A stretch of DNA of 64,000 nt from Protonemura montana (Eukaryota; Arthropoda; Insecta; Plecoptera; Nemouridae), in assembly GCA_947568835.1 (NCBI GenBank), contig OX387606.1, positions 16,988,001 through 17,052,000 on the forward strand, written 5' to 3'. A program made the position numbers and the translations under genes. Below, piece after piece: positions 22,296 through 63,095 of this stretch (its first letter is position 1; each line of letters begins with the position of its first letter). The notes beneath the pieces are model-generated. The model searched no databases. It saw only the letters and a program-made list of their open reading frames with translations, and was not told where the DNA came from.

Positions 22296-25086
22296 ATGCT
22301 CATCACGGTAGCATTGTTGTCGTGTTTTTTTTTGAGCGGATCTTTTGGTAAAGTTTATGAGAGATGTGAGTTGGCGCAAGAGCTAAGAGATGTGCACAAA
22401 CTTGAGGAAAAGGAGATCGCAACTTGGGTAAGTGAAACAAATGGTCTAGTACTGAAAACAGAAAAGGTTTTCGTACTCTTTATTCCAAGTCTTTAATCTT
22501 GGGCACAGTAAATAAATACTTTGTAAAACTGTCGAAGAACTTGATGGTTACATGAAATCTGATTTAAATTGTAAACGCTTGTAATGCGCGAGGTTTTGAT
22601 GCGGTACGGTTATTGATGCTCGGGGCATCGATTTTAAAAGGGTGGTAGTGTTCCTACTAATGAAAAACTCGATGGTTATGCATATGAAAAAAATTTACAA
22701 AAATAATCACCAATTTCTATCACTCAAAGATAAACTGGGGTTGCAGTTTTAGACGTTTAAATCTTACTTGTGATTCTATGTTTAATTAAACAGTTTCTTT
22801 AAGTTGGATTTGTTCGATACCAAATATCTGACGCCACTCTCTAAGCGTTCTCCCATACGTCAGGTAAATTATTGCATAGAGTGCTCCAAGAAGTGTATGC
22901 GTAGATGAAGCTGTAGATGTGTTACGTGGGGAGAATTTATATCGCTTCCTTTATTGACTCGCAAATTATGAAAGGTGTGCTACGAGAATCCATGGTCAGT
23001 GATGAATGCATTTTTGATTAATCTGTATAATGTGTGATTCGGCGAAGACTCTGCCCATGGGTTGCCTAACGGTTTTTTGAAAGTGTCGATGACGTTACAT
23101 ATTTTATTACCGAATTTCAGTCTTTTACAATACAAACTCCCTTCGCTCTTTCCCTGCATCCATCAATAACCATAAGTTCCCTTTCTATGGCCTCATATCA
23201 TCTATATCGACCAGTTGTGCTCCTAAAATATGTATGTACATAGTTTATTCATCATTTTTCACGTAAAATATGTCAATATCAAATTAACTGTGGCTTAATA
23301 TTATACCGGTATAGGCATAAAAAAATTTTCAAGGGTGACATTTTGTTTTATTCAATTCGTAAGTGAATTGCCTCTAAGCCTTTAACCATTTATAAAAGCT
23401 ATCGAAAACGCATTAGGTCATAGTATCGGAGACGTACACGTTCTTCCATTGATTAGTCCAGAAAATACTTGCAAGCAACAATCTCTCTCGTCAAATGAAT
23501 AGAAATATCCTGCCACTCTCCCACTTTGAGCCACTAGAAACCCACAAGTGATCAATGGCTCAAGCTTAGGGTTGTAAAGTTGTACAAGGTTGACTTCCAA
23601 TCAAATATCATGACTGGAAACCTCTTTTATCTATGAAAACAAGTCACTATAGAAATATGAATGACTTGGGTAACGAAGTGGAAACATAGGTTACGAACTA
23701 ACTCTATCTTCGGTATCCTTGCTTCGGCGCTAAGAAGGGTCAAGGCCGAATACCAGCGACATTGCTTATAGTCACGACTGTAGTACACACTCAACGGTAG
23801 TATCTTGACGGAGGTCATCAATGATATGGATCCTGAAGTGAAGAAGTGAGACCAAATACCATAAAGTGAGACGAACACATTTTTGAGGGGGTAGATAAAT
23901 TCTCATGGGAAACGCTCCTGATCCTATCTCGAATACATATCGCAAACTACTTAACAATTTGATTATTAGGAACACTAATAAACTCACAAAAATTGGTGTC
24001 ACATGTTCTCCAATGTTCAACAGATCGAATTCAAAGTTCAATGTTCGACAGGTGTGCATCGCGCGCCACGAGTCAGAATTCAACACTTCAGCCGTGGGTC
24101 ACATGAACTGGGACGGTAGCGGGGACCACGGACTCTTCCAGATCAGTGACCTTTACTGGTGCTCTCCGCCGGGGAAGGGCTACTCGTGCGGGGTTACCTG
24201 TGCCCAACTCGAAGACGACGACATCAAGGACGACGTCGTGTGTGCCAGAAGGATTCACAGACAGCACCAGAGGATCTCGGGAGACGGGTTTTCAGCGTGG
24301 GCGGTTTATAGGTATTTTCTGCTTTTATGTTGGTTTGTTACACAGGTTGTCTACTGTTACAATTTAGATTGCTTACCGTCAGAACTGATTTCGCAAGCTG
24401 TTTGTGTATTCTGTGTTCTGTGCTTCTATGCTATGAGATTAATAAGCAAAGCGAATGAAGTTTCTGTTCTAACTTACATCCCTCCAATGTCTCTACAGAA
24501 CAGAAATAATAATATCTATGGTGGCCATTCATCCAATAACTGACCCTGCGTGGTGATGCTCACCTTCGCTCATTTTACGAGATCCGGTGTTTCCGACACC
24601 CCAAACCGTTCGGAGGTCACCCATCCAATACCTAATTCAGCGCAGTGTTGCTTAACTCCACTGATCTCACGAGAACCGGTGTTTCCAACACCCCGAACCC
24701 GTCTGTTACAAATAGATTCGATTAAAAGGATTCCAATCTCTTACAGGCCACACTGTTCCGCCAACGTGGACCAATACGTGAAGGGTTGCTATGACAATGT
24801 CCCCACGGTGAGCAACATTGACCCTTCCAACGAGTTGACCAAGATCGAAATTGTCTCCGGCGAGGAGTTGGTGCAGAAGACGGAGGCGACAAAAGAAAAA
24901 GTTAAAGACGAAGTCGCGAAGAGCAAGCCCGATGAGAAGCCAGTACAAGCTCTCAAGTCTCGCGTCTTTCAGTCTGAAGCAGCTAAACGGGGAAGAATAC
25001 ATTCCCACGAAGAACAGTTCAAATCAAGGTCTAAAGCTGCTAAACCATTCTACGCCAAGCTGTACGAATTTGTGTATCAGCCGTGA
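22296..25086 (+). CDS. c-type lysozyme with long charged C-terminal tail
   Basis: Exons 22296..22427, 24052..24311 and 24747..25086 join in phases 0 and 2 to give 243 residues. A signal peptide (about 1-18) precedes mature KVYERCELAQEL. The glycosyl hydrolase family 22 fold is intact: catalytic Glu in ARHESEF (E51) and Asp in GSGDHGLFQIS (D69), plus all eight conserved cysteines (ERC, VC, WC, SC, TC, VC, HC, GC). It should hydrolyse bacterial peptidoglycan outside the cell, for defence or digestion. After the last cysteine (145) the protein runs on for about 97 residues rich in Lys and Glu, ending LYEFVYQP; ordinary c-type lysozymes stop near 120-130 mature residues. The promoter is a TATA-Inr type, and intron 2 holds a 5S-derived SINE. 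Confidence 0.93.
22428..24051 (+). other. Lysozyme intron 1
   Basis: 1.6-kb intron, GTAAGT donor and GACAG acceptor. No other feature recognised. Confidence 0.7.
24440..24715 (-). mobile_element. 5S rRNA-derived SINE, truncated, with two 5S-like heads
   Basis: Read on the minus strand, the segment at 24620-24700 matches the 5S rRNA internal promoter region (GGTTCTCGTGAGATC.., TTAAGCAAC.., ATTGGATGGGTGACC). A second, more diverged 5S-like block lies next to it (about 24515-24610). The part at 24440-24500 (AAGCRAARCGAATGAAGTT) is shared with the fuller copy at 28020-28362. It lies inside lysozyme intron 2. Confidence 0.7.
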
Positions 25087-25554: not shown

Positions 25555-28500
25555 TCATGTCGGTTTATCCTGGTAGACTGCACGCACCACGTCCGCCATG
25601 CTCGCGTAGGTTCCCGTTAGGAAACCCAGGATGCCGATTAAGAAGATGGCGGCGTCCTTGGCGATGCCGTTGCGGGATATGGTTTCCCAGCGAGTGACCA
25701 TGTCGAGGATGGCTGGGAACAGAAGCGCCAGTGCGGTGCTGCTGACGGCGCCGATGAGCGAGATTACTAGACCCAGGTGGGGGATCACTCCTGCCAGGAA
25801 GACTGGAACAACCGGGGGAAATTAGGACAAGTGGGGAGGAGACTTTTTAAATATTAGTGTATATATTGCTGTATAATTAACATTTTTTATGCTAAGGTTC
25901 TACATGGCCAGTAAATGACTTTTGGTTGGATGGCTATTTTATGAAAATAGCATTTTTTTAAATTTGAGTCTTAGGAAAGTGATATTACTTCTTACAAGTC
26001 AGTCACGTACTTCGTAGATATATACTTTATATTTTCTCTTTAACGTAGTTGTGGTAAAGTCAGGGAATGATAAGCATACATTTATTTATTTTTACTCCTT
26101 TAATATATAAATAAATAAATATATATACTTTTAATGAAAAATAATCAAGAAGCAGAACAAATTTAGCTCACCTATGAGGCAAGAATAATAATGATTATTA
26201 TGTTGTAGAAAAAGGATTTAATTTTAGTCGAGCCAGAGTATTTTTATTTAATATTTTATTTGTCTTGGACTTTATTCTAAGCTTGATAAGAAATGTTCGT
26301 TTTTTGGGGGTTCGTTTTGGCAAATATAGAAAACGCTTTGAAAAAATGACCATGTTCTACTTAAATGCGAACCGTTATCTATAATATACTCGATTATTAG
26401 CATTCTTACTTTCAAAGAAGGTTGTGGATTGGTCTTCAAAAATTGGTCTGACATTCCTTTAGGTTATTCCCCTTTACGATTGACTGTACATGTAAGTTAA
26501 GTCGTATTTTGCACCCCTAAGACCGCTGGCAGTGGACATTTTTAAACAAATACACGACCTATATTTTTGAAACTATAATACCTTTACTCACATGTAATTA
26601 GCACCAAGACACTTCTGAAGATCGTTTCCAAAATAGCCGGATGCTTGAACGGTCCGTACTTATTGGTGATCGCTGGCCACATGATGATGAATGGAACGTA
26701 CATTTGAATAGCGAACGTGAAGATAATTCCCAAAGATATCGTCACTCTGATCAATTGTGGCAGCCTGTAGCAGAGAAAACCAAACGACAACATTAAGCAA
26801 CAATATCGTGTATTGTTCTTGGAGTTTTGTGACTTACGCTTGGTCCGTTGGCAGGTTGAGTGTGAGGCTTCCTTTCGCCCCCTCGCCGTACTGGAGGTAA
26901 CCTAGGGTGCCCATGGTGATGTGCAGAATGGTTACCATGATCATGCCAACGTTCAACACTCCAGCGGCCATGACAAATTGACGCGGTTTCTTCATCTGAG
27001 CTTGAAGCGGTAAAACCTAAAAAAAAAAAAACACTAACAAAACAACGCCAACATGGGAAGTAAGTCTGCAACATTTCTCAATGTAAGTCCTCATAGTTTA
27101 GAGATATGGAATGAGTATAATACACATATGTTTAAGATTACCAAACCGATTCCTTCAAATGCGTAGATGACTGTTCCAAAAAACAGCGGTATTCTCGAGT
27201 AATCTGCAACGAACTCGCGGTCTGTGGGTGGTGGCAGTTCCGATGACATGACGAAGAAGGTGCCGACGATGCCGATGAACATGAGGATGTTGGCTCCCAG
27301 AGACACAGGAACCAGGTATTTTAGGTCGCGAATCCAGCAGGAGAGCAGGATAGGAATCAGGACGACGGCCATGTGGACGTAGAGCTCGGCGACGACGTCG
27401 TAAAAGTCCAGTACCTGGGTTAATTAATTTGCAAGAATTTGAAGAGAATTATTAAATATAAAAATGTCTAAAGTAATAACTCACCAAGCTTTGCCAAAGT
27501 TTCACCTGTTTAAGATTTTCAGCGATGAACAAGAAAAATACGCAACAAAAGCCCATTTGAGTGACGCATAAAAAGACGTTGATAAGTTTTCTGTAAAAAA
27601 AGTATAAATATTGTATTTAAATAATGCAGGAATAGCCAAAATTGTACCGTATACATGGATTTTCTTGGACTGTATTTAGTCTATATACTTATTGTTGATA
27701 CCAAATAGAAATTAAGCTCTAGTCATCCGTCCAAGAATAGTTAGCCGCGAGGCTGTATAGTGGTGATTTACTTGGAAAACGTTGAATATTTGGCTAGTTG
27801 CGAAGGTCCAGTGTCGAAGGCGATTTCGACCGTGTCTGCAAAGCTCAGCTGTTCAGTCGAAGCAGTCCGACGCTTCATTTCCTTGGACGCTTGAAGCTGC
27901 GACACCAAACATCACCCACACATAATTGATTTGTGGTGTTTAACGACACACTGTTTTGACATCTGGCAATGCGGCACTGGTCTAATGACGTCGGTGAATG
28001 AGTGGATGATGATGAGGATGATGATGAACCTAACATAGCTTAGAAGGGAGGAGGGGAAACCCGGTGCCGGCACGTAGCCTACTCCTGTCGAAAAGCACCA
28101 AGGGGACCACCGGCTTCACGTCCCTTCCGAAGGACGGTACAACTCGAACAGCAGGATTCCTCCACAAATCCACGCTGTCGAGAGGTTGATAAGCAAGGCG
28201 AATGAAGTTGTTGTACTAACTTTCATACCTCCAACCTCTCTCCCGAACAGAACTGGTCATGTGTATGAGGGTCATCCATCCAATACTTAACTCAGCGTAG
28301 TGTTGCTTAACTTCGGTGATCTCACGAGAACCAGTGTTTCCAACACGCCAAACCGTTTGGTGCACATAGATGAGGCTTTTTATACCACCGAGCTAGATGC
28401 TAGATTGAAATTAGATGTAATAAGTAAAAGGGATATTTATTCCTAAAAGGACTTGGTGGCCCCACGTTTTAGAAGAGAACGTTTGCCTTATCTTCAGAGT

Positions 28501-45696: not shown

Positions 45697-45890
45697 TGCA
45701 CCAGCCTTCTGATAGCCGCATGTTTCATGTTACAAAGAATATGGATTTTCACCATAAATGCAAAAGTTCTCAGAACCTATTTGACATTTTCACATAGTTT
45801 ATTAATACAACAATTCTTAAGATGTGGTTAAATAAAAAATACGTTTTAGCTGGTTGTCCTCCTCGGGTTTTGTCCAAGGTCATTCTTAAA

Positions 45891-48800
45891 TTATGCTCTT
45901 GTGTACATTTTGTCCAATAGCGATTGCAAGTAATATCCACCCTTGCAAACCTGGAAAGTGACAAGATAAAGCATGTCATACCAGATCAGACGGGCAACTC
46001 GGTGAAAAGTTTCTTGAAGGTTTTAATTTTTTCTAGTGATCACAGAAAAGAGTGATATAATAAGCCAACACGAATAATACTGACTGATCTGAAGGTGCGT
46101 CGGGAGAGAGGAACTCCCGCAGCCTTGATGGCCAGATGCTTCTGTGCACGAGTCATCAAAAGTCGCAGAGAACGCTTGAAGGGCTCCGACGCTTCCAGCC
46201 AGTCGCACTCGTACGCCGAGTTGAACAATTGCATACTCTACAAGGATCTTGTGGTACAGAAATATTCACAGCCAAGTATTTTTTTTACCAGCAAATATGT
46301 TTTGCTTGATATAACCGTTAAGTCCTTTACGACATCACTAAGAAATCAATAGATCTGTTATTCTGCGCTGCACTTTCACACTGTTCGACAATGTCGATAC
46401 AGAAATCCAGGCTGGCTATTTGTTAGCAAAATAAGTTCTAGTTCTTTATACCACTGTGTCCGGGAGCCTTGCCAGTTTATCAAGTATCAGTATGAAAAGT
46501 AAGAAAAGTGCGACCCTGTGTCAACATTAGAAAGCATCTCACAGAACTGAACACAGAACTAATTAACTGGTTTATAGCTGATGAATAGACGTATTGCTAA
46601 CTCAAATTGTTATGAGTTGTAAATACTCAGCAAACGCTATTGTTATAAAACTCGTATGGAGAACAACATTTTCTTAGTAGTGACATTGTCCATCCAGAGC
46701 TTACCGCGATGGTGAGGCGGTCGCAACACAGGCAGAAGAAGAAGAATTCTGAAACACCCGCCATGATCAAGGCGCTCATCATGATTACTTTCGGGTCCGT
46801 CTTCTTCGACTGAAACACACACACACAAACAGGGTTCAATGTCTAGTTAAACTGCAAACTGTTAACTGCAGACTGATTTCCAGACTTACCAGAGTGCTAA
46901 CGTACAAGCCAACGAGTCCCAAGAGTCCGTTGAATACAATCTGCTCGGCCAAAACCACGTTAAAAATTGACTGTATCTCTTGGACAAGCCTGAAAAGAAC
47001 ATGTTTATTGCTTAGTTTACAAAACGAAAATTAATTATCTTCATTGAATTCATGCTTTAAAACACAAAATAGTTATAGTTTGTGATCAGGTCCAAACTCC
47101 TGTCACAATAAATTACTGGATTAACTGCTGGTGATGATTGGCGTTGATGCCGATGAGCTCATTCATCATTCTCGTCGTTTGTTCTTCCACCCTCTTCGAC
47201 GCCAATCTCTCTTTCTGCAAGTCCCGACTCGCCTCGTTGTCTTCCAGACAACATTTGGACTCTTCGGTTCCCACTACAACGTCCGGCTTCTTCACAATGT
47301 CGCCGAGGTACTTGTCCACCCAGTCTCGGTGCCTAATGTTTGCAAGAATCTCAACCCGTCGAATGCTTCTTTCATGCATTTTCACCATACTCGGAAATCC
47401 GGCACAACCTCGACGAGATCGTGACTTTAAAATTTCATCAACTATGAGTTTAACGTTTAAAATGTCGCTGCTAAAATACAAAACAAAAAATCAGAAAAAA
47501 AAGAGAGAGAGTAGGGGAAGAAACTGTATGGAGGTGGAGAATTCATTAAAACTGATCGGGCTTCCCAACCCAAAGGTTTTGTGAAGCAGTTTTAACCTAG
47601 GATGGGAGATCTGAGTAAGCCTACCGTAATGTATAAGTATTTTTGCACCTACCTGAGCATCTGCAACTGGCCGGCTATCTGCAAGATAGGGGTGATAAAG
47701 CAGAGATCACTGACAACTACAGTCAACAGGTCGATTAATATACCGACAGAGACAACGGTTGCGGTGATCTCATATGACGGGCTGACGGTAACGTCGTGAG
47801 GAAACCACAGCCTGCAAAAAAGTACCATTGTCATGCTTCGCAGTCGTATCTATTATGCAAGGCTGTGTAACGTTGAAGGATGAACGTACTTAGAGAGACA
47901 TTAAAAAATTTGCAAAAGTTGTTCAAAAATATTTTGTTGTTTTTTAATGTTGTGGAAAAACGGCAAAAATAATCAGTTAAATGAAAATTAGTGAATAATA
48001 CTCGTGAATATTACTGGAAACACATTTGTGAAATTTGTCGTTGTACAGAGCTGAGTAAAAAAATAATTGTACAAATAATCTGTATGTAGTTAACATCAGC
48101 AACACGAAAGCATTAGTGTACATCAAATCCAATATTTTTCAATAGCAAAAACCTTTTTTTCGCTCGTACGCTCATCCAACAACAAGAAAGCATGACTCAA
48201 ATGATTTTTCTTACATGAAAAGCACCTCTCTCTTTGAAAAGGCGTACGGGATTAATATACAGGTGCAGACGACCATGCCGCTGACAATCACCCCTGGAGG
48301 GTACTTGTTGATGAAGTTGGAGATGTTGTCTGTGTTGCGGAGGATGGCGACGTTGCGTTGAGAAACGCCGACCAGGTCCACGTTCAGTTGATCGACGCGT
48401 GCCAGCATGCATCGAACGCGTGCGCGGTGCCAGTAGAGCGTGAAGAACTTGAATTCACATTTAGAGAAAACCTAAGTAGACTTGTTGTGGTTTAAAGTTG
48501 TGAAAGGGAGAAAAGTCACCAGCACCTCAACAGTAAATTCTAGCATGCAATGAACAGATAAAATTTGAATAATCTGTTTATATGAGTGTTGGACGAAATT
48601 GATCTAACATATAAATACGTTTTTTTCTCTCAGAGTGGCAACCATACGTCGGGCACTGCGCCCCCAACATCTTTGAGATTTACCTTGACACCTGCGTGAA
48701 TGTACATAATGAACATGATTGTGAACTCGGCTGTCAGGTACGTGTCGCCCCACACCTGCTTGACGCTCATTGCCTCGCAGAGCAGAATGAAGACAACGCG

Positions 48801-49939
48801 GCACAAGACGAAGATCGGAAAGAATCGTCGCCAATTTTGCCCGCTTTTGCTGATTAGGGGGTCAATAGGCCAGAGTCCTGTGCCGGGAAATCCTGGCGAT
48901 TAGTACTTATTCACTTTTGCTGATAATCCTCGCTAGTTAATATCTATTTTATTGCAGTTATTATGACAGGTTTTACAAGTACCAAGTTAATGTTATCATA
49001 CATATTAACAACTATAGTTTCAAAGAGTTGACCGTTGTTCTTAAAGGGCGAAACTGGGGATTTTCAAGTATTTTCTTACTAAAGTAAAAAAAATTAAGTT
49101 TTAAAATCCGTGACGTTGACAATGGGTAGCAAAGCAAAAAGTAGTATTGAAGCATCACAAATGCCATTTTTAAGTACTTTCGATCGGTGACAAAAATTGA
49201 CAGAGTAAGAAGTTTTATTAAGAAGACAAATTAGAAGATATGAATGGAATTCTCTGTTTTCTAATTGGTAAAGAAAGCTTGAAGTTTAACGGAAAGGTGA
49301 TGAGAATAAAAGTAATAAGTTTTCCTGAGAAAATTCTTGAAATTAAATATGAAAAGAGGGGAGTAGGAAGACCACGGGAAAGATGAATAGTCCAAGAACG
49401 AAGAAATATTGAAGAAAGAGAAGAGAACTGGGACAAAACAAACAGAGAAAACATGGTTGAACAGAGGAAATAGACTGTGATTACGAGTCAAAGAGATTCA
49501 AAGAGATTCAATATAGATGAGTGAAGTTAAAGAAAAAAAAACTGTCAAATGTATTTATTTTTGCAGGCAGGAAAGACCCCAAACAAGACATTTTTACATG
49601 GTTGTTGAAGAGGCAAAGATAAACAAAGAAATTAAAGATAATAATGATAACTTACTTTAGTAAATAAATTGCATGGAAAATTAAAAAAAAAGACAATACC
49701 ATAGAAATGGAGTAAAATTTCTTGTTATACGGAGAGATTGTGTTTTTATGCCGAAAAGCAGAAAGGAATTGTGAGCAAAGAGTTGGCTTGTGAGCTGTGA
49801 GCTTGAGTGAAGACATTTTTATATCAACCTAAAAATAATTATTTGTAGCCACAAAGTTTCACTCACCGAGTAAATCCATAGCCTTTCGATTAAAATCCAG
49901 CACACTTTGATGTTTTAGTGGCCGACCCAACGAAGGCAT
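45891..49939 (-). CDS. Odorant receptor 1 (7tm_6) with long intracellular loop
   Basis: Nine exons, complement: 49867..49939, 48684..48892, 48215..48447, 47653..47811, 47117..47470, 46890..46989, 46705..46809, 46085..46237, 45891..45950; phases agree, 481 residues. The C-terminus YECDWLEASEPFKRSLRLLM, RAQKHLAIKAAG, PLSRRTFRSVCKGGYYLQSLL is the insect odorant-receptor signature. These proteins have seven membrane helices with the N-terminus inside the cell and form tetrameric ligand-gated cation channels, usually with Orco. The start opens MPSLGRPLKHQSVLDFNRKAMD. Exon 5 adds about 118 mostly charged residues before NHHQQLIQLVQEIQSIF, that is, between helices 4 and 5. Few ORs have such an insert; Orco does. 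Confidence 0.88.
49267..49473 (+). mobile_element. RTE-like retrotransposon C-terminal remnant
   Basis: In intron 1 of OR 1, plus strand, a frame reads EKRGVGRPRER, a stop where tryptophan is expected, then IVQERRNIEEREENWDKTN and ENMVEQRK. The GRPRxRW motif and following pattern are typical of the C-terminus of RTE/BovB-type elements. Short and inactive. Confidence 0.5.
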
Positions 49940-50509
49940 GCTTACTTTTAGGTTTGTCAGTAACAAACGTTGAAAAACGTCGGGAAAACAACTTTATTTG
50001 ACAACTTAAAAAAAAAGTTGAGTTATTTCAACACTGAACCAACTGTAACAAAGTGCGGAGTTTCCACAATGCGTCACAAACCTGTCGAATCGGGGAGTGT
50101 TTACCAGCGATGGTACCGGCAGTTCGGCAATAAAATCCTGTTACAAAGTCTACTGTGGCCACTTTCTGAGACACGTACTCGTACATTATGGATGGTCATC
50201 GATCGTTTCTCGGCAACACTTTGGTAATTTATTTTGTGTTCTCTTTAAACTAGCTGTATGCGTGAGGGTAATAGGAGGTAAAATATATCCCCGTTTCAAT
50301 AAGCCAGTTGTCATATGTATGTACGTGCTGTTAAGCTGTTCTCCTTTGGACTTTCATTAAAATCAAATAAATCCTGGTTCTAATAAAATATAGCACAGTA
50401 TCAGACGAAAAGTATCAGTTTTAATAAATAATTTATCTTCAAGTATCGATTCGAGACCACTCCGATAATAACACAAATAAAAAATACTAAACAAAGTTAA
50501 AAAAAAAAG
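49940..50509. other. Spacer between OR 1 and OR 2
   Basis: AT-rich; must contain the OR 1 promoter. No core element recognised. Confidence 0.4.
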
Positions 50510-50694: not shown

Positions 50695-50788
50695 CTGAAA
50701 AAGTTGTAGTCAAAACTAGTGCTAAGGTTAGATAAAGTAGACATGAGTCTAAAAATCGTATTAAACGAAGTTCATGATCCATTTTGCT

Positions 50789-53700
50789 TCAAGTTGTTGT
50801 GTAAATTTTGTTGAGTAGCGATTGGAAATAATACGCTCCTTTGCAAACCTGGAAGCAATCAAATGAACCAGATTAAGTACCTTGCTGTTGAACACCATGA
50901 CGACGTGTGATGACGCCAATAATACTGACTGATCTGAAGGTGCGTCGGGAGAGAGGAACTCCCGCAGCCTTGATGGCCAGATGCTTCTGTGCACGAGTCA
51001 TCAGGAGTCGCAGAGAACGCTTGAAGGACTCCGACGCTTCCAGCCAGTCGCACTCGTACGCCGAGTTGAACAATTGCATACTCTGGAAGCATTAAGTGGT
51101 AGAACCACAGAGACCACTCACCTCCGCATACTAGAACATGTTCTTAAAGTCCACGCGAGACAATTTTCTACATCTGATCAGACGTGAGTTCTAAATGGTA
51201 AACATATTTTTGACTAAATCCGGAAAAATAGAAATTCTTCTCGACAAAAACTATTTGAACTGGGTTTTTTATGCTAAGTGAAGAACATCTAAATTTACCA
51301 AAGTTTCGTAACTTGTACCTGTTACTTTATCAAGGGTAAAAGCAGTCCTGACAATTTTCCGATAACTATTTCGATAATTATTTGATAATTATTGGAAATT
51401 GTCAGGACTCCATAACCGATCCATATTCCGATCCATATTCCGATAATTATCGGAAAATTTTTAGGACTGCTTTTACTCTTGATAAAGTGGCAGGTACAAG
51501 TTACGAAACGCTGGGAATTTAGTTGTTCTTCACTTAGCATTTAGAACCCAGTTTAAATAATTTTTGTCAAAACTAGTTCTAAGGTTAGATAAAGTAGACA
51601 TGAGGCTTAAAACTATCATAAGGAATACTTCTCGTTGTGATTCAGCCACATATCTGTTCGTTGTTTCTGAGAATACTTGCATCTTATACTAATTCGTTAG
51701 AATTTTCACGCCAAAGACAATCAAAGCAAAATGTCAATTTTAATGCATGTAAGCCAATCCCGGTGTTTTTAAGAGACTTTCATTGGCGCTATATATTCGT
51801 TTCCTTGTTGTGCATGTTAGAAATGTGACTGGCAAAAGGAGAGTGCTGATTCCTTACCGCGATGGTGAGGCGATCACAGCACAGGCAGATGAAGAAGAAC
51901 TCGATTAGACCCGCCATGATGCATGTGATCACCAACAGGATCTTCGGGTTTGATATCTTAGCCTAATGCAACGCCGAGTTAGTTTTGTTTTTGCACCAGT
52001 GAGCATCATGTCGACTTATTGTCTTGAGTTTCTTTCTTACCAGAGTGCTGACGTACAAGCCAGCGAGTCCCAAAAGTCCGTTGAATATTATCTGCTCGGC
52101 CAGCAGAGCGTTGAAAATTGACTGCATTTCTTGAATGAGTCTGCAAAGATAAGCAGTGACGCCAATCATACTAAAAAACGGAAACAATACGCGAAAACCA
52201 GTCCATGCAGGAATTTTGAAAAGTGTTCATATTTTATTTCACAGTTGGTCATGGCATTTCTATCTCTGTTCAACTATAGTACATGTAACTCAATCAACAA
52301 CACATTACTTGATTATTTGCTGATGGTGATTGACGTTGACGGCCATGATTTCATTCATCTTTCTCGTCATTATCACTTCCTTCATCTTCAAAGCCAATCT
52401 CTCACTCTGCATGTCACATCTTTTCTTGCTGACTTTCCCCTCGATTCGCTTACTCCCATCAACTCGCACTTCTACATCCGTCTTCTCGACGAGGTGTCCC
52501 AGGTATTTGTCCACATTTTCCCCGTGCTTCATGCTTGCAACGACCACAACCTTTAGAGTGCTTCCTTCCTGAGCTTTTACCACTCTTGGAAATCCGGCGC
52601 AAAGTCGATGAGACCGTGACTTTAAATTTGATTCAACAATGAGTTTTGCGTTTTCAATGTTGCTACTAAAATAAGAGAAGAATAGAGACTAAAGAACAGG
52701 CGTAGAGCCATTTTGCAATTCCTGGCCACTTTTCTTTTTAATGTTGAAAGTAGATGATAAAACACTCTTTCTATTTATGAGCCTGGTGTACCTTAGCATC
52801 TGAAGCTGACCAGCAAGCTGCAAGACGGGGATTGTGAGGCACATGTCACATAAAGATATGGTGACCACGTCAAGAAATACACCAAAGGTCACAACGACAA
52901 GGGTGATCTCTAACGACGGGCTGATAGTGGTGTCGTAAGGAAACCACATCCTGCCAGAGAAGACCCAATTTATAATTTAAAAGTGAATACCCTGGCGATT
53001 TTAAATAAAAGCTGTATTGCTCTTACATGAATAGAATCTCTCTCTTTGACAAGCAGTGAGGTACGAGAACACACATACAGGCGGCTATCCCGCCGATGAT
53101 TGCAGCTGGAGGGTACTTGTAAACGAAGTTGGAGATTATGTCTGTGTTGCGGAGGATGGCGACGTTGCGTCGAGAGACGCCAACCAGGTCCACGTTCAGT
53201 TGATCGACGCGTGCCAGCACTCGCTGGACGCTTGCGTGATGCCAATAGAGCGTGATGAACTTAACACAAAGCGTAGTAAAAAATGATTTATTCAACCAAA
53301 CCCGGCGTAGTAGCTCAGTAAGTTTGCTAACCCAGTCAAGGTGACCAGGTCGAGGAATGGTCGAGGAATGAGGACTCAAAGAACAATGTTCTCATTACAA
53401 ATGTTGCCCAAAAATGGGATCAAAATCACCATGCAAATTAATGAATACCTGTTGGACATTTACATGAAATATGTATATTTTACATCTCATAACATCCCCA
53501 CGCCACTCCTTCCTGATAGTGGGATCCTGATACTATAAAATAGTTTTTCCAACTCTGCTCAAATGTGCCGATTTACCTTGACAGTTGTATGGATGAGGAA
53601 GATGAGTATAATCGTGAACTCCACGGTCAAATACGTGTCGCCCCACGCCTGCTTGATGCTCATCGCCTCCACGAACATGTCAACGGCCAAGTGGCACAAG

Positions 53701-54160
53701 ATCAAGATCGGAATAAAGCGACGCCATAGGCGGCCACCTTTTGTACTTTGGGGATCAATGGGCCAGAGTCCTGTGCCAGGAAAGCCTGAAGGTTAGTTTG
53801 AGATTTGAGACCTGCTTTTTTGGAGCAAGAAACTTTTATAATCTTTGTCATCTTTATCTCAACTTACTAAAGTCAAATCTAGGAAAGATTTCGAGCCAGC
53901 TCGTGAAGGCTGAACATAATTGTATGCGTGAAACTGTTGTTAAAAATTTGGGGCCTCTGAGGCCATACCAGTTAAGAACTGGTAAAGAACTGGTATTTTG
54001 ATTGTTTTGGGTAGAAACCCTTAATTAATCCGAAAAGTTTAAATTAATCTCGTGAAAGAGAATTCAGAACCCTAAGGTTTCACTCACCGAAGAAGTCCAT
54101 AGCCTTCCGATTGAAGTCCAGCACGCTCTGACGCTTCTGATCCTGAACTAACGAAGGCAT
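50789..54160 (-). CDS. Odorant receptor 2 (7tm_6), paralogue of receptor 1
   Basis: Nine exons, complement: 54088..54160, 53577..53785, 53027..53259, 52792..52950, 52309..52665, 52041..52140, 51858..51962, 50930..51082, 50789..50848; 482 residues. Exon lengths equal those of OR 1 except exon 5 (357 versus 354 nt). It shares MPSL, QSVLDFNRKAMD, GFPGTGLWPIDP, LARVDQLNVDLVGVS.RNVAI, and the same C-terminal signature. The exon-5 loop is again long (about 119 residues) but has changed far more than the rest. Exon 8 is almost identical to OR 1 exon 8. It arose by tandem duplication and is intact; the ligand is unknown. Confidence 0.88.
51260..51551. mobile_element. Foldback MITE, copy 3
   Basis: In intron 7 of OR 2 (between exons 8 and 7 on the plus-strand map). 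About 105-bp arms: CTGGGTTTTTTATGCTAAGTG, CGTAACTTGTACCTGTTACT, ATCAAGGGTAAAAGCAGTCC at the left and their inverse at the right. The loop is made of ATTATCGG/CCGATAAT repeats that fold on themselves. Confidence 0.8.
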
Positions 54161-54859
54161 ACTAAAGAACAAACCAATACCAAAAAGGTGAAGTCATTTA
54201 TCTGTCCTTAATGAAGTGACAGATTTATATTCCACTGGGAACGCGACTGTAGTTAGTTTTAAAGAGAGTTTAGTTTTTTTGGCCACTCAAACCGATGCCG
54301 CAATCATAGCTTGCCTACCTTCCACTAAATATATGTACATAATTTTAACCCTCACATTATTTTAAAACTAATTGTGTGCAAGTTCAATGATTAAAAGTTT
54401 TAAACATATCCTAATTCGCTACTCAAATGTAATTTGATGGTAATACATATTAAACTATCAAAATAGACAGTAAATAAAAAATATTCATAGAATGGGTGAA
54501 TAATGGATATAGGCGTTTCAAAAAAACATTACTTGATTGTAGCTGTAGTTTCAAATATCAAGAACACAATAAAAGTTTGCTATTGAGACCAATTAAAGTA
54601 ATTTCGAAGTTGTCAACGTTATGTGAACGGTAATGTACTGTAATTGGGTTTCGATCAACTGGATAGAACCACACCACGCTAATGCTGCCAGGATCAAAAA
54701 TAAACGCATCGTCAAGGCGCGCCGGCGCCGTCTTAACAAAGAGACTAAACTGACACTTAGATCAAAGATAGAGGCTTCAATATTGATATACTTCTATGCT
54801 TGGAAATCCTTTGATAGCAGCTACCTATTGTATGTTATTCTGAGAGGCACTGCCCCATA
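54161..54859. other. OR 2 upstream region
   Basis: AT-rich; presumably includes the OR 2 promoter. No gene or repeat recognised. Confidence 0.4.
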
Positions 54860-57215
54860 AAAAAAAAACGGGTGTAGCTGTATCTTATTGATACGGCCGA
54901 TATTGAAGCGTGACTACGTTCAACTACCGCGTAGGTACGTAGGTCAACTACCGTACTGACCATACTTCACATGCAAGTTTTACATCTCTCTTTATTTGGG
55001 TTGTGTTTTCATATCTAATTTACATGCTGAAGGACTTTACAGATTGGGATGGAAGTGTCATCTTGCGATATATATATTATTTTTTTCCATTAGTCTAATG
55101 ACGAGTGCCAAAAACGCCGCCTCCTCTCACGCCTCCAATATTTGATCAATCAAAATAAAAAAAAAAGTACTTTTAGATAATTGTCTGAACTATTGAATGA
55201 TAATAAGTCGCATTCTGTCCTTTGTTTCCTGTAGGCTGTAGGGGTTGTTACACATTTGCCATTTTGCGTAATTTAACATTGGTCTTATGGAGAGAATTAA
55301 AAACGCCAATCCCTCTAACGCCTCCAATATTTATTTTATCAAAAATCAAAAAAAAGTAATTTTAGAAAATTGTCTGAACTATTGAATGATAATAAGTCGC
55401 ATTCTGTCCTTTGTTTCCTGTAGGCTGTAGGGGTTGTTACACATTTGCCATTTTGCGTAATTTAACATTGGTCTTATGGAGAGAATTAAAAACGCCAACC
55501 CCTCTAACGCCTCCAATATTTATTTTATCGAAAATAAAAAAAAAGTTCTTTTAGAAAATTGTCTGAACTATTGAATGATAATAAGTCGCACTCTATACTT
55601 AGCTTCCTGTAGGCTGTAGGGGTTGTTACACATTTGCCATTTTGCGTAATTTAACATTGGTCTTATGGAGAGAATTAAAAACGCCAACCCCTCTAACGCC
55701 TCCAATATTTATTTTATCGAAAATAAAAAAAAAGTACTTTTAGAGAATTGTCTAAACTATTGAATGATAATAAGTCGCATTCTGTCCTTTGTTTCCTGTA
55801 GGCTGTAGGGGTTGTTACACATTTGCCATTTTGCGTAATTTAACATTGGTCTTATAGAGAGAATTAAAAACGCCAACCCCTCTAACGCCTCCAATATTTA
55901 TTTTATCGAAAAAAAAAAAAAAGTACTTTAAGAGAATTGTCTGAACTATTGAATGATAATAAGTCGCATTCTGTCCTTTGTTTTCTGTAGGCTGTAGGGC
56001 TTGTTACACATTTGCCATTTTGCGTAATTTAACATTGGTCTTATGGAGAGCATTAAAAACGCCAACCCCTCTAACGCCTCCATTATTTATTTTATCAAAA
56101 ATAAAAAAAAAGTACTTTTAGAAAATTGTCTGAACTATTGAATGATAATAAGTCGCATTCTGTCCTTTGTTTCCTGTAGGCTGTAGGGGTTGTTACACAT
56201 TTGCCATTTTGCGTAATTTAACATTGGTCTTATGGAGAGAATTAAAAACGCCAACCCCTCTAACGCCTCCAATATTTATTTTATCGAAAATAAAAAAAAA
56301 GTACTTTTAGAGAATTGTCTGAACTATGGAATGATAATAAGTCGCATTCTGTCCTTTGTTTCCTGTAGGCTGTAGGGGTTGTTACACATTTGCCATTTTG
56401 CGTAATTTAACATTGGTCTTATGGGGAGCATTAAAAACGCCAACCCCTCTAACGCCTCCAATATTTATTTTATCGAAAATAAAAAAAAAAAGTTCTTTTA
56501 GATAATTGTCTGAACTATTGAATGATAATAAGTCGCATTCTGTCCTTTGTTTCCTGTAGGCTGTAGGGGTTGTTACACATTTGCCATTTTGCGTAATTTA
56601 ACATTGGTCTTATGGAGAGAATTAAAAACGCCAATCCCTCTAACGCCTCCAATATTTATTTTATCAAAAATAAAAAAAAAGTACTTTTAGATAATTGTCT
56701 AAACTATTGAATGATAATAAGTCGCACTCTGTCCTTTGTTTCCTGTAGGCTGTAGGGGTTGTTACACATTTGCTATTTTGCGTAATTTAGCATTGGTCGT
56801 ATGGAGAGAATTAAAAACGCCAACCCCTCTAACGCCTCTAATATTTATTTTATCGAAAATCAAAAAAAAGTACTTTTAGATAATTGTCTGAACTATGGAA
56901 TGATAATAAGTCGCATTCTGTCCTTTGTTTCCTGTAGGCTGTAGGGGTTGTTACACATTTGCCATTTTGCGTAATTTAACATTGGTCTTATGGGGAGCAT
57001 TAAAAACGCCAACCCCTCTAACGCCTCCAATATTTATTTTATCGAAAATAAAAAAAAAGTACTTTTAGATAATTGTCTGAACTATTGAATGATAATAAGT
57101 CGCACTCTATACTTAGCTTCCTGTAGGCTGTAGAGCTTGTTACACATTGGCTATTTTGGAGAGCAAATCCGTACATGCCTCCCTATATAATGCGCTTTAA
57201 GACGTAGTCACGTCA
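54860..57215 (+). mobile_element. Non-autonomous element with amplified 189-bp core
   Basis: Left 250 bp (from CGGGTGTAGCTGTATCTTAT, about 54869) and right 60 bp (to GACGTAGTCACGTC at 57214) match, in the same order, the inverted single-core copy at 62641-63095. Subterminal CGTGACTACGT (54909-54919) recurs inverted near the right end (57202-57212). Between them lie about 11 tandem copies of the core. No ORF. The structure (subterminal inverted repeats plus central tandem repeats, no target duplication seen) recalls DINE/Helentron-type elements, but that class is a guess. Confidence 0.75.
55110..57150 (+). repeat. Tandem array, about 11 units of 189 bp
   Basis: The marker CCTCCAATAT (with small variants) recurs at 55132, 55321, 55510, 55699, 55888, 56077, 56266, 56455, 56646, 56835 and 57024, a period of 189 bp with one step of 191. 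Units are nearly identical. A variant (CACTCTATACTTAGC instead of CATTCTGTCCTTTG) occurs in the unit near 55590 and in the last near 57105, which suggests exchange within the array. A-runs of variable length follow each ATCGAAAATA. Confidence 0.95.
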
Positions 57216-57460
57216 AAAACGATATTCCTGAAGGGTTAACGTTGCGTCCTTGTAAATTGCCTGTCGATATTTGAAATATGAACATGTATGGTTGGTTGCT
57301 AGCAAGTACTAGGATCTAGCCTCCTTAACTCTTCCAGAGTCAAAAATTAAGTACATGGCATGCAAAAATCTGCAACGGTAATTTTCTGATTTGATCCAAT
57401 CTACCGTGCCAAAAGTCACACCAGTGGGACTTCATTGTTTTCACTCTATTTTCGCCAAAA
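57216..57460. promoter_or_regulatory. Presumed SPAG6 promoter and 5' UTR
   Basis: Only 245 bp separate the repeat-bearing element from the SPAG6 start codon, so the promoter must lie here or inside the element. No TATA box is evident. Confidence 0.35.
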
Positions 57461-60400
57461 ATGGCTGCCAAGCTAGTGTTGAACACATTTGAAGTGTACC
57501 AGAAAGCGCGCGTGAGTTTTGCACAGACTACCGCCGACTTAGCATCACAGCCGGGCGCAGCGGACCCTCTGGTTGAAGCAGGGGCGCTGCAATTGCTGCC
57601 CCCGCTGCTCAATGATATCGCTCCGGGGGTGCAGCATTCGGCTGCTTTGGCGCTTGGCCGGTGAGTGCCTAGCCGGCGTTCATATTTTTTTCTCACCTGC
57701 CATTCCTGCCATTTCCATTTATTTACTTCGGTCAAATCTGTGTAGTTGACCAATGACATGTGAACCTCACGATTAAACTATTATCTATAGTGGGAGTTCG
57801 TATGGTTTAGGTTAAGACTGGACAAGTTTCCTCACACCACGTCTGATCCTAATCTACGTTTTTCCTATGAACTAGGCATTCATATGAAGTTTTAGCTTAT
57901 GTAACTCACTGAAAGTTTGCAGACTCATTGAAAAATATAAAAAAACAAGTAACCCGTTTCCAGTTTTGCGCAGCTCATCACAATAGGATAGTAAAGGGTG
58001 GATAAAACAAGTGTTTTCACTGCAATCTTATAAAATATCTTTGATGACAAACGACCCTGGGACGTAGCATTGAATATTTTGATTCCTTTCTAACCCTATT
58101 TGACAAGGGGTGTTCTGTGCTTATATACCAACGTCCCACTTTGACGGCGTAGGCACGTGGAGGTCGTGAGGTATGAACCAGAATGGAAAATGGGTTTGCT
58201 TGAACGACGCTGCTACGAAACCACCCTGCCCCATCGCACCCTGTCTTACTTGAACCCTCTGACAACAGTCTGGCTAACCACTCGCCTCGTCTCGCGCACG
58301 AAGTTGCCAGACGTGGCATGCTTCCCATCCTGCTTTCCTCGCTGAAGAAACAAAACCGATACTACAAGAAGGCGGCGATGATGGCGCTGAGGTCGGTGTC
58401 CAAACACAGCGCTGACTTGGCACAACTGGTCGTCGACGAGGCCGGCCTAGACGCCATCTTGTTGTGTCTCGAAGACTTTGACGCTGTCGTCAAGGAGACA
58501 GCAGCGGTGGCGTTAGGACACATCGCCAAACACAGTCTATCATTGGCGCAGGCGGGAATCGACGCAGGGGTGGCGCCGCTATTGGTAAGACTTGAAAACC
58601 ACAAGATAAATTGTTCTTACCACTACCTAGTACCAGATAAGAAAAAAAAAACTACAAAAATGAGTTTTCTTAAATGCAACCCGCATAACAAACTCGGCAC
58701 TTCCATTAAGTTTGTTCTAGCTTGTTCTGGCCACAGAAACTTGTGATAAAATAATGGGTAATTGACTCGACCAATATACTTATACCTATTCACAGTCTCA
58801 AGAGACTTTAGCAAGACGATCAACTACAGTAGCTGGTTTATCAGACCACACTGCTTTGGATCTTGCTAGCTGAATGTAATAAAATCACTAAAAATAATGA
58901 CAGTTTCTCTCATTATCGACTAAAACTAACGAGGCTCTTGCGCCTGAGAACTGATGAATGGATTGAAACCAAAAAAACAGCGATTGTAGCCGGGACGGGC
59001 GGAGATCGGAGTTGAGGTTGAAGCAAGACGCAATCGATGTGTAAAGATTCTCGTTTACTTATAACATCTTCACGTATAAACAAGCTGGCTGGGAGGAACG
59101 CTCGGCTGGCGTCCTGCTCGTCTGGCGTCCGAGTTCAGAGAGAGAGTGCCTCTAAGAGCGCGAGCCTGGCTCTCGCACTCCAGATATATCCATCAAAACT
59201 CTAGGGTTGCACTTTACTAGCTAGGCGCTCTCTGGCATTACTAGCGCTCTCTATAATGGTACTATGATACTCGGTGATGGTACTGTATCAACTGTAGTTG
59301 GTACACGATTGTGGAAAAGGAAATGCAGCTAAAACTCTTATATTTTAAGACGCGTGAAGGATTACAGGGCCAACAGGAAATCACTATCTCAGCTAACAGG
59401 ACCTGTTTTTCTGGCGACAGGTGCTGTGCTTGCAGGAACCCGAGAGCACGCTGCGACAGGTTGCAGCCTACGCGATCAGCGAGATCTGCCGGCACAGTGG
59501 TGAACTGGCACAGGCGCTCGTTGACGCAGAAGCTGTGCCAAGGTATGGTCGTTCCACCACTGACAGTTTAAGATTTTTGTTTCGATACCCAATCCTTAAA
59601 AAAAAAACGGTCCCTGGAACTGCGCTTTGATTGGCACTAACCTTTCCATCGCAGACTGGCGCGCATGGCAGCGTGTCTCGACCCGAAGCCTAGCGGGCAG
59701 CTGCGCGACTCGCTCAAGGCGCTTGCCACGATTGCTCAGCACAGCGCAGGTCTGGCAGAGACAGTGGCTGAGGGGGACCTCTTCCCCGATGTACTCACGC
59801 ATCTCGCGCACCCCGATCAGCGCGTGCGCGTGGAGGCAGGGCGACTTGTGCGCGAGGTCGTCAAGCAGACCGACGAGGTGAGCTAAGAGTTAGCCTCGAC
59901 TAAGAGTGAGTCGAGGATGAAACCGATGCCGACTAGAAGCACTGTTACTTTAGGTCATGCACCTCTGCATCTCTGACTGTAGGCTGTTGGGGCATGTAAG
60001 GAACGTCATCGGCTTAGCATGAATTTCTGATTGCCTGGTCCAGCTGGCGCTGCTGGTGGTGAATTACGGAGGTGTCGGCGCCCTTCTGCAGCTGATCGAT
60101 GAGTCTAAGGGCACAGCGCGACTTCACGCAGTCATGGCGGTCGGTTTCATTGCCGCCCAGTCCGAGCACCTGGCCTACTGTCTCATACAGGCGCACGCCG
60201 TGCACGAGCTTAGTATGTATAAGCTTTCTTTAGTCACGCTACAAGGTTTTAAACAATGCCATGAAGTTTGGCGCTTTGAAAATGAGTGCTTCAGCGTTAG
60301 TTAGCAGCTGCTCAATGTTAAAATTAATACAACCATTGCTATTACAACCATTGATACGTCAGTTTCACTCACAAAGAATATTTGCCAGGGAGAATAATTC

Positions 60401-61749: not shown

Positions 61750-62640
61750 GTGAGTAGTGGCCGGCCACTTTTGATAAAAAGTTGAGATCACATAGAACTT
61801 TGTGACTAGTCTTGTTTACAGACGTTTGAATCGGACAAGAGGAGGTGGGAGGGTTGACCGCGAAGTGCTAAAACGAAAATCAAATTCAAGGTTATTTTGG
61901 AAAGGTCAAGGTCACGACTTGCCAAAAAAATCGACAGAAAAAGCAAATCGAGCTCACCTTGAAAAATTCCATGTCGATCACGCAGTGCTTTACTAAACTT
62001 GGATGCTCCTGTTCTAGAAACCGAGATCTAATTTCTGTGGCACATAGAAAAGACATAACAAATATTTTACAACACGATCTGTCTTTTTGGGAAAAATAAG
62101 ATCAAATTATGCCGTCCAAAGAAAAGTGGTACTCCAAGCGGCTGTCGACATCTTTTGGTCGAAGTACTGACTCGCACAAATGGCTTTTTTTAGGACATTG
62201 CAATTGAATTCAGACGATCCTTATCAGCAGAAATGAAATATATGTATTTTTTACTGTCAGGGTGACCAACGCATGATATAAAAACAGCCAAGATAAATAA
62301 AATATGCACAGTTAAATCAGTTGTCAGCATGACGATTGTGCAATTGTTATAAAATGCCTGAAATTTCGTAATTTGATCAAATAATGAAAAACATAGAAAT
62401 ACAGTATCGGATCAGTTCGTCCATATGTATAATATGCGTATAATCGGAGGTAATTATTTCTTTTTTTTTCAAAGAGATTTATACAATAATGTACAATGTC
62501 TGAGTATTCAATTCCATACTTCCATTCACATCCCTTTTGTTATAAATTCCCTAAAACTTTTTACATTTTCATCCCTTTTTCGTCATTACACTTTTCAGCA
62601 CCTCTTTCTTCAATCCCAATCCATTTCTTTCATAATTTTT
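61750..62640. other. SPAG6 last intron or 3' region
   Basis: AT-rich; follows the phase-2 donor at 61749. I looked for the final SPAG6 exon here and found no convincing match. Confidence 0.4.
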
Positions 62641-63095
62641 GACGTGACTACGTCTTAAAGCGCATTATGTAGGGAGGCATGTACGGATTTGCTCTCCAAA
62701 ATGGCACATGTGTAACAAGCCCTACAGCCTACAGGAAACAAAGGACAGAGTGCGACTTATTATCATTCAATAGTTCAGATAATTCTCTAGAAGTACTTTT
62801 TTTTTCTATAAACTAAATATTGGAGACGTGAGAGGAGGTGGCGTTTTTAGCACTTGTCATTAGACTAATGCAAAATAAAATATATATATCGCAAGATGAC
62901 ACTTCCATCCCAATTTGTAAAGTCCCTCAGGATGTAAATTAGATATGAAAACACAACACACATAAAGAGAGATGTAAAACTTGCAAGTGAAGTATGGTCA
63001 GTACTGTAGTTGACCTACGTGCCTACGCGGTAGTTGAACGTAGTCATGCTTAAACATCGGCCGTATCAATAAGATACAGCTACACCCGTTTTTTA
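62641..63095 (-). mobile_element. Single-core copy of the 189-bp-repeat element
   Basis: Inverted relative to the copy at 54860-57215. It starts GACGTGACTACGTCTTAAAG and ends GATACAGCTACACCCG. It matches both flanking arms and holds one 189-bp core unit (about 62700-62860), with a GAGGTGGCGTTTTTAGC junction as in the first unit of the other copy. Divergence from that copy is a few per cent by eye. Confidence 0.85.

Follow-up and report, generated by a model that had tools for sequence, protein, structure and literature searches.

How tandem arrays first originate from mobile elements is debated, and among the repeat-bearing derivatives of the Drosophila element DINE-1 is DINE-TR1. HINEs and DINE-1, which are associated with Helentrons and known from mite, mosquito and Drosophila, have, in the portion of the account drawn on here, subterminal inverted repeats that measure 11 bp or more and are separated from the 5′ end by 2-4 nt and from the 3′ end by 38-60 nt, a palindrome of 5-10 bp at 8-35 nt from the 3′ end, a preference for TT with variable Ts and no target duplication, and sometimes central repeats (PMC4067079). 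The subterminal repeats of the mite HINE are 12-15 bp long and palindromic (PMC4067079). Cg_HINE of the oyster Crassostrea gigas is described, in the parts of the report used here, as having Helentron arms with subterminal inverted repeats and a 3′ palindrome, T-rich or TT targets, no target duplication and scattered, central satellite-like tandem repeats; its 5′ microsatellite is followed by a segment variable in length and sequence before the first repeat (PMC7492417). Central tandem repeats are also present in Tetris and in the repeat-bearing DINE-1 derivatives of Drosophila, in which, according to the same portion of that report, they also occur as, or build, classical satellite arrays (PMC7492417).

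The window, that is the whole 64,000-nucleotide stretch of Protonemura montana DNA analysed here, contains two copies of one element with a 189-bp core, the ends of which were fixed from many copies (Table 1). Since the SPAG6 frames end near 61.75 kb, this gene sits between the two copies: its first exon matches PDB PF16 and Sperm-associated antigen 6 (E ~1.5e-17), and further exon-like frames, judged by eye, run to ~61.75 kb. Both the flanking of SPAG6 by the same element in opposite orientation and the contrast of one core with about 11 in the same arms, as proposed in the initial annotation, were thus confirmed. The one-core copy shows 91% identity to the left arm and first core of the 11-core copy and 89% identity to its last core and right arm, and for the array of the 11-core copy TRF reported a period of 189, a copy number of 10.8 and 94% matches, with 11 units counted, ten of 189-191 bp and a final one of 157 bp. 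An A-run, which is partly target sequence, adjoins both copies. No frame longer than 49 aa starts inside the 11-core copy, which in this respect agrees with the non-coding character of HINEs.

Table 1. Coordinates of the element copies, their parts and neighbouring features; positions are those of the window unless a locus is named.
Feature	Position	Strand	Remarks
Whole element, 11-core copy	54869..57218	-	strand of the Helentron 5′ to 3′ reading
Termini of the 11-core copy	5′ = 57,218; 3′ = 54,869	-	strand of reading
A/T runs beside the 11-core copy	54,859-54,868 and 57,219		target or ambiguous
3′ arm (left arm)	54869..55085	-	common to copies genome-wide
3′ hairpin, stem GTATC/GATAC, 5-nt loop	54880..54894	-	11 nt from the 3′ terminus
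3′ subterminal inverted repeat, ACGTAGTCACG in the Helentron reading	54909..54919	-	40 nt from the 3′ terminus
Central array	55110..57158	.	10 units of 189-191 bp and a 157-bp last unit
5′ arm (right arm)	57159..57218	-	begins TTTTGACGTGACTACGTC
5′ subterminal inverted repeat CGTGACTACGT	57202..57212	-	self-palindromic with its neighbours (GACGT-GACT-ACGTC)
Second copy, one core, opposite orientation	62637..63088	+	Helentron 5′ to 3′ on the + strand
SPAG6/PF16 first coding exon	57461..57660	+	243 bp beyond the element 5′ end
5S rRNA-like pieces, window	24591-24706 and 28242-28360	-	Rfam RF00001
5S rRNA-like pieces, locus L091	831-1052 and 5180-5801

On the strand complementary to that of the window, copies begin with TTTTGACGTGACTACGTC, which was present in 40/40 right ends picked by their match to this arm, and finish with GTATC-loop-GATAC-AGCTACACCCG followed by Ts. 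The stem of this 3′ hairpin is kept in 27/29 left ends, and its DNA fold (z = -1.6) is weakly better than that of shuffled sequence. Subterminal inverted repeats, one of the features on which the initial annotation had based its comparison with DINE/Helentron-type elements, are 11 bp long in the 11-core copy and lie 6 and 40 nt inside the two ends, CGTGACTACGT being situated 2 nt after the terminal Ts. The 3′ repeat, which has one change in the one-core copy, is exact in 27/29 left ends, and the 5′ repeat is exact in all 40 right ends, again with the reservation that these were picked by matching the same arm. At the 5′ side, at least TTTT was found in 41/41 distinct fetched ends, preceded by a further T in 33 of them, and 41/45 3′ ends show a T-run of at least three after 0-4 Gs. 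With the chimeric flanks of 25 full copies as queries, empty sites (related unoccupied sequence) were recovered for three independent insertions, one of which falls within another repeat with five unoccupied relatives. The exact join is ambiguous in two of these three sites (A/T run), and the third was read across relatives with several mismatches. No target duplication outside the T-run was present at the three empty sites, in line with the lack of an obvious duplication noted earlier; an all-T duplication would be indistinguishable from the Ts of the element. Insertion between T and T without duplication is the best reading of these sites.

Canonical Helitrons have a 5′ TC and a 3′ CTRR and insert between A and T, and were rejected as the class of this element, which has the ends TTTTGACG...ACACCCG and inserts into T-tracts. 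MITEs and foldback elements have terminal inverted repeats and target duplications. That the element is a cut-and-paste MITE or foldback element, with the short inverted repeats as its real ends, is highly improbable: 11-bp inverted repeats do lie near both ends, but they are subterminal, the ends are asymmetric and the three empty sites lack a duplication outside the T-run. By the described features, namely the length and placement of CGTGACTACGT relative to the terminal Ts and to the 3′ end, the 5-bp GTATC/GATAC palindrome 11 nt from the end (with the weak fold score given above), T-tract insertion with variable Ts and the three empty sites, assignment to a putative non-autonomous Helentron (HINE) family is supported, and the previously suggested Helentron/DINE-type likeness stands. 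The element shares with HINE and DINE-1, as far as these accounts describe them, the subterminal repeats, 3′ palindrome, TT preference, variable Ts and lack of duplication. However, it is likened to them by description rather than by the DINE-1 core sequence, and its (TA)n run is found towards the 3′ end with none seen on the 5′ side, whereas DINE-1 and Cg_HINE are described with a microsatellite in the 5′ module.

Like Cg_HINE, the element combines Helentron arms, with their subterminal inverted repeats and 3′ palindrome, with central satellite-like repeats, uses T-rich targets without duplicating them and is dispersed in the genome, and it is therefore of an already known type, the same kind as that described in part from the oyster. 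The two differ, in a comparison by description, in that the element here has a precise junction and an exact ladder of 1 to 17 units in place of the variable segment of Cg_HINE. What is unusually clean here is this exact ladder with constant arms, accompanied by block duplications and by duplicate pairs, and the latter permit a first test of the timing of the change in unit number.

The genome searched was a single 258.5-Mb assembly in 34 contigs. The right-end pattern (23 bases, up to 2 mismatches) gave 286 matches, the left-end pattern (28 bases, up to 3 mismatches) 284 and the core pattern (26 bases, up to 3 mismatches) 882, with 0 matches in the backwards control of each. Cores are in a ratio of about 3:1 to ends, i.e. 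about three cores per insertion, and 882 cores of 189 bp amount to ~0.064% of the genome. Co-occurrence of arms and core beyond the window, on which the proposal of a mobile element turned, was borne out: a core and at least one arm were found in 43/43 merged loci (window included), some of which had been found through their arms, and both arms were present in 28/43. These results support a multicopy mobile element. The choice of fetched copies relied mainly on resemblance to the two in the window and thus favoured younger ones; multi-core left arms chosen in this way are on average 96.0% alike, compared with 94.6% for those chosen by their 28-base end only.

Fifty-eight insertions could be paired from the 100 left and 126 right ends listed, 26 of the right ends having come from a 13-base pattern (209 matches versus 15 in the control); of these insertions, 55 fall on a ladder that rises from 1 to 17 cores in whole steps of 189 bp. 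The count of cores per insertion that had been called for thus gave ten insertions each with one and two cores, five with three, two with four, four with five, two with six, two with seven, four with eight, eight with nine, four with ten, two with 11, one with 12, two with 14, one with 15 and one with 17, the three off-ladder insertions being tallied at the nearest number. One-core copies form a separate class (10/58). For 68 right ends no left end was listed, and in 34 of the 40 that were fetched the match left no more than 40 bp uncovered on the inner side of the 331-bp stretch; similarly, for 42 left ends no right end was listed, and 17 of the 20 fetched are backed by a core. As most of the fetched ends on either side continue into the element, the unpaired ends mostly reflect the partial set of listed ends. 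Given that array length is known from the assembly alone, the 11-unit array could in principle be an assembly artefact, but this is scarcely conceivable, as a 2-kb array is within long-read reach and dozens of unrelated loci show the same ladder, with an ordered succession of unit-specific variants.

Comparison of the units of 25 full copies showed that the first, internal and last units of the array are distinct sequence classes. Between elements, last units are 97.1% identical to last units and internal units 97.2% to internal units, compared with 92.5% for internal versus last units. Internal units within one element are 97.9% alike, and this excess over the between-element value was reached by 0/500 label shuffles. 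When 91 internal units were compared for their nearest relative, one segmental duplicate having been dropped, for 54 it lay in another element, for 16 in their own, and for 17 the two were tied; four had no second internal unit in their own element. Because internal units are nearly as alike between as within insertions, arrays mostly travel with the element, and the two window copies are no before-and-after pair, so the view of the SPAG6 pair as a direct snapshot of array formation was not sustained. The slightly higher likeness within elements makes some change in place likely.

Selected by the same 28-base end, single-core left arms (7 rows) are 95.4% and multi-core left arms (8 rows, two of them identical duplicates) 94.6% alike, and the two groups are thus about equally diverse. 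In a tree of 45 left arms, neither single-core nor multi-core copies form one clade. The tree has 5 label changes compared with a shuffled mean of 7.5, and 4 and 6 of 500 shuffles as low indicate some clustering of the core-number label, in part owing to near-copies; 3/36 inner branches are well supported. Variant left arms occur in loci L071, L075 and L084, the first two of which are left ends backed by a core. In L071 the stretch that directly precedes the core is similar to the linker found between internal units of arrays, as though this subfamily had supplied the array units. In one single-core copy (L089, C12:690749-691359), the right-arm region is itself tandemly repeated at 44-bp intervals, so that repeats arise at a second site within the element.

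The unit number changes fast. Two insertions, each on its own contig, share 223 bp of identical left arm and contain 5 and 3 units, a third with the same arm contains at least 8, the fetched stretch ending within the last of them, and a second group of identical left arms contains 12, 2 and about 9 units. In a 14-unit copy, units 4-7 exactly equal units 8-11, and in a 17-unit copy units 2-4 exactly equal units 7-9. By contrast, two segmental-duplicate pairs kept their number, with 7/7 units at 98.3% and 10/10 units at 99.8% identity, one pair being located in a tandem-repeat region in which gene conversion could hold the number equal. As duplicates keep the unit number and identical-arm insertions differ, a change during transposition is hinted at, and these few cases (two duplicate pairs and two identical-arm groups) suggest that the number alters on copying rather than while the element resides in the chromosome. 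Many young insertions of this family share the same arms and differ in unit number from 1 to 17; with the exact block duplications and the few segmental duplicates, they make array growth during versus after transposition directly testable.

We consider it very probable that this is a HINE family in which the array is inherited and the unit number shifts in blocks, probably mostly during copying and less in place. Rolling-circle transposition would copy the element, presumably using the protein of an autonomous Helentron, and the array would be passed on as part of it, as the conserved first, internal and last unit classes indicate. Units would be gained or lost as whole blocks of one to several, probably for the most part while the element is copied and less often in place; template slippage or recombination of tandem units in a single-stranded or circular intermediate is a candidate cause. 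An unlikely alternative for the same element is that the unit number changes in place after insertion via unequal crossing over, of which multi-unit block duplications are an outcome and with which the higher likeness of internal units within elements, unmatched in the label shuffles, is consistent. However, divergence of 0.2% and 1.7% left the unit number unchanged in the two segmental-duplicate pairs, and independent insertions with identical left arms differ (3, 5 and at least 8; 2, 12 and about 9), which argues against this alternative. A more radical version, in which rolling-circle copying of the tandem template skips whole blocks of units and so rewrites the unit number at every transposition, while integrated copies stay fixed, is a tentative possibility that we rate at about one third. 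If true, each copying event would have left its gains and losses of repeats on natural record in the family, and satellite birth would start with replication and not with chromosomal recombination.

Satellite DNA is characterized by long arrays that are independent of a mobile element. The longest array, both among the 58 paired insertions and with the array query, has 17 units and spans 3.2 kb, and a 2,079-bp array query detected none with more than 17 units among the best 40 of 354 candidates scored. Placement of the first 100 listed of the 882 cores, which form 32 clusters, identified a listed element end within 4 kb of 30 clusters; the other two had arms when read, the right arm being partial in one. 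No core cluster apart from an element end was therefore present among the 32 inspected. Since the arrays stay short and stay with the element, there is, judged on assembled sequence, no evidence that they are (yet) satellite DNA, and the claim of the initial annotation that the element gives rise to satellite DNA was not upheld. Seeding of a true satellite, with long core arrays that exist or form outside the element, is improbable: arrays of up to 17 units with recent exact block duplications, the threefold excess of cores over ends and the possibility that a satellite is missing from the assembly, on which all counts are based, would fit it, but the limited array length, the small genomic share of the cores and their constant association with element ends or arms argue against it. 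In the parts of the report used here, some repeats of Cg_HINE are related to a classical satellite, whereas none was found for the element here, and the classical arrays formed by the repeats of Tetris and DINE-1 derivatives were likewise unseen (PMC7492417).

A search for an autonomous Helentron with the same ends did not identify one; the PF14214 search was dominated by another Helitron (best 150 of 207), and as that search was filled in this way the missing partner is weak evidence either way. In the consulted part of its description, Cg_HINE likewise has no relatable autonomous Helentron (PMC7492417). The abundant Helitron was rejected as a partner, being devoid of the element ends and inverted repeats in the two copies read. 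It is autonomous, with at least 150 copies (207 candidates), long open frames and nearly equal profile scores; the two copies read are 94-99% identical over most of their length, and clusters with a spacing of roughly 10-20 kb were located on C7, C8 and C33 and at C4:0.32-0.72 Mb, C12:16.6-16.7 Mb and C15:0.65-0.76 Mb. Another candidate, L135 (C16:28265500-28275400), is a single-copy locus resembling a Helitron: it matches DUF6570, falls just below the cut-off for Helitron_like_N and shows helicase-like frames by eye; it has different ends and was rejected as well, and a 500-aa piece of it used as a query matched only itself. An OTU search yielded 5 scattered matches from 11 candidates. Behind the left ends of L082, L084 and L088 comes other sequence, of which the first 5-6 kb contain no right end. 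Among the right ends, L109, L130 and L131 retain part of the core; in L105, 36 bp are left, and in L132 and L133, which are part of a 9.5-kb tandem duplication, 116 bp. No helicase-like frame was seen by eye in the duplication. This duplication, in L134 (C4:8069100-8079050), is 98% identical where its copies meet and carries a truncated right end of the 189-bp-core element.

Further repeats were observed in the window. A block of ~5 kb is arranged in tandem at 45872-49942 and 50770-54163 with 72-98% identity, and another repeated pair is located at ~36.3-38.8 and 43.0-45.6 kb. Furthermore, a dispersed repeat contains pieces that match 5S rRNA (Rfam RF00001), one of them barely reaching the cut-off. 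Elsewhere this piece seems to be tandemly arrayed with a step of ~91 bp, and the repeat is possibly a 5S-derived SINE that is also expanding its head.
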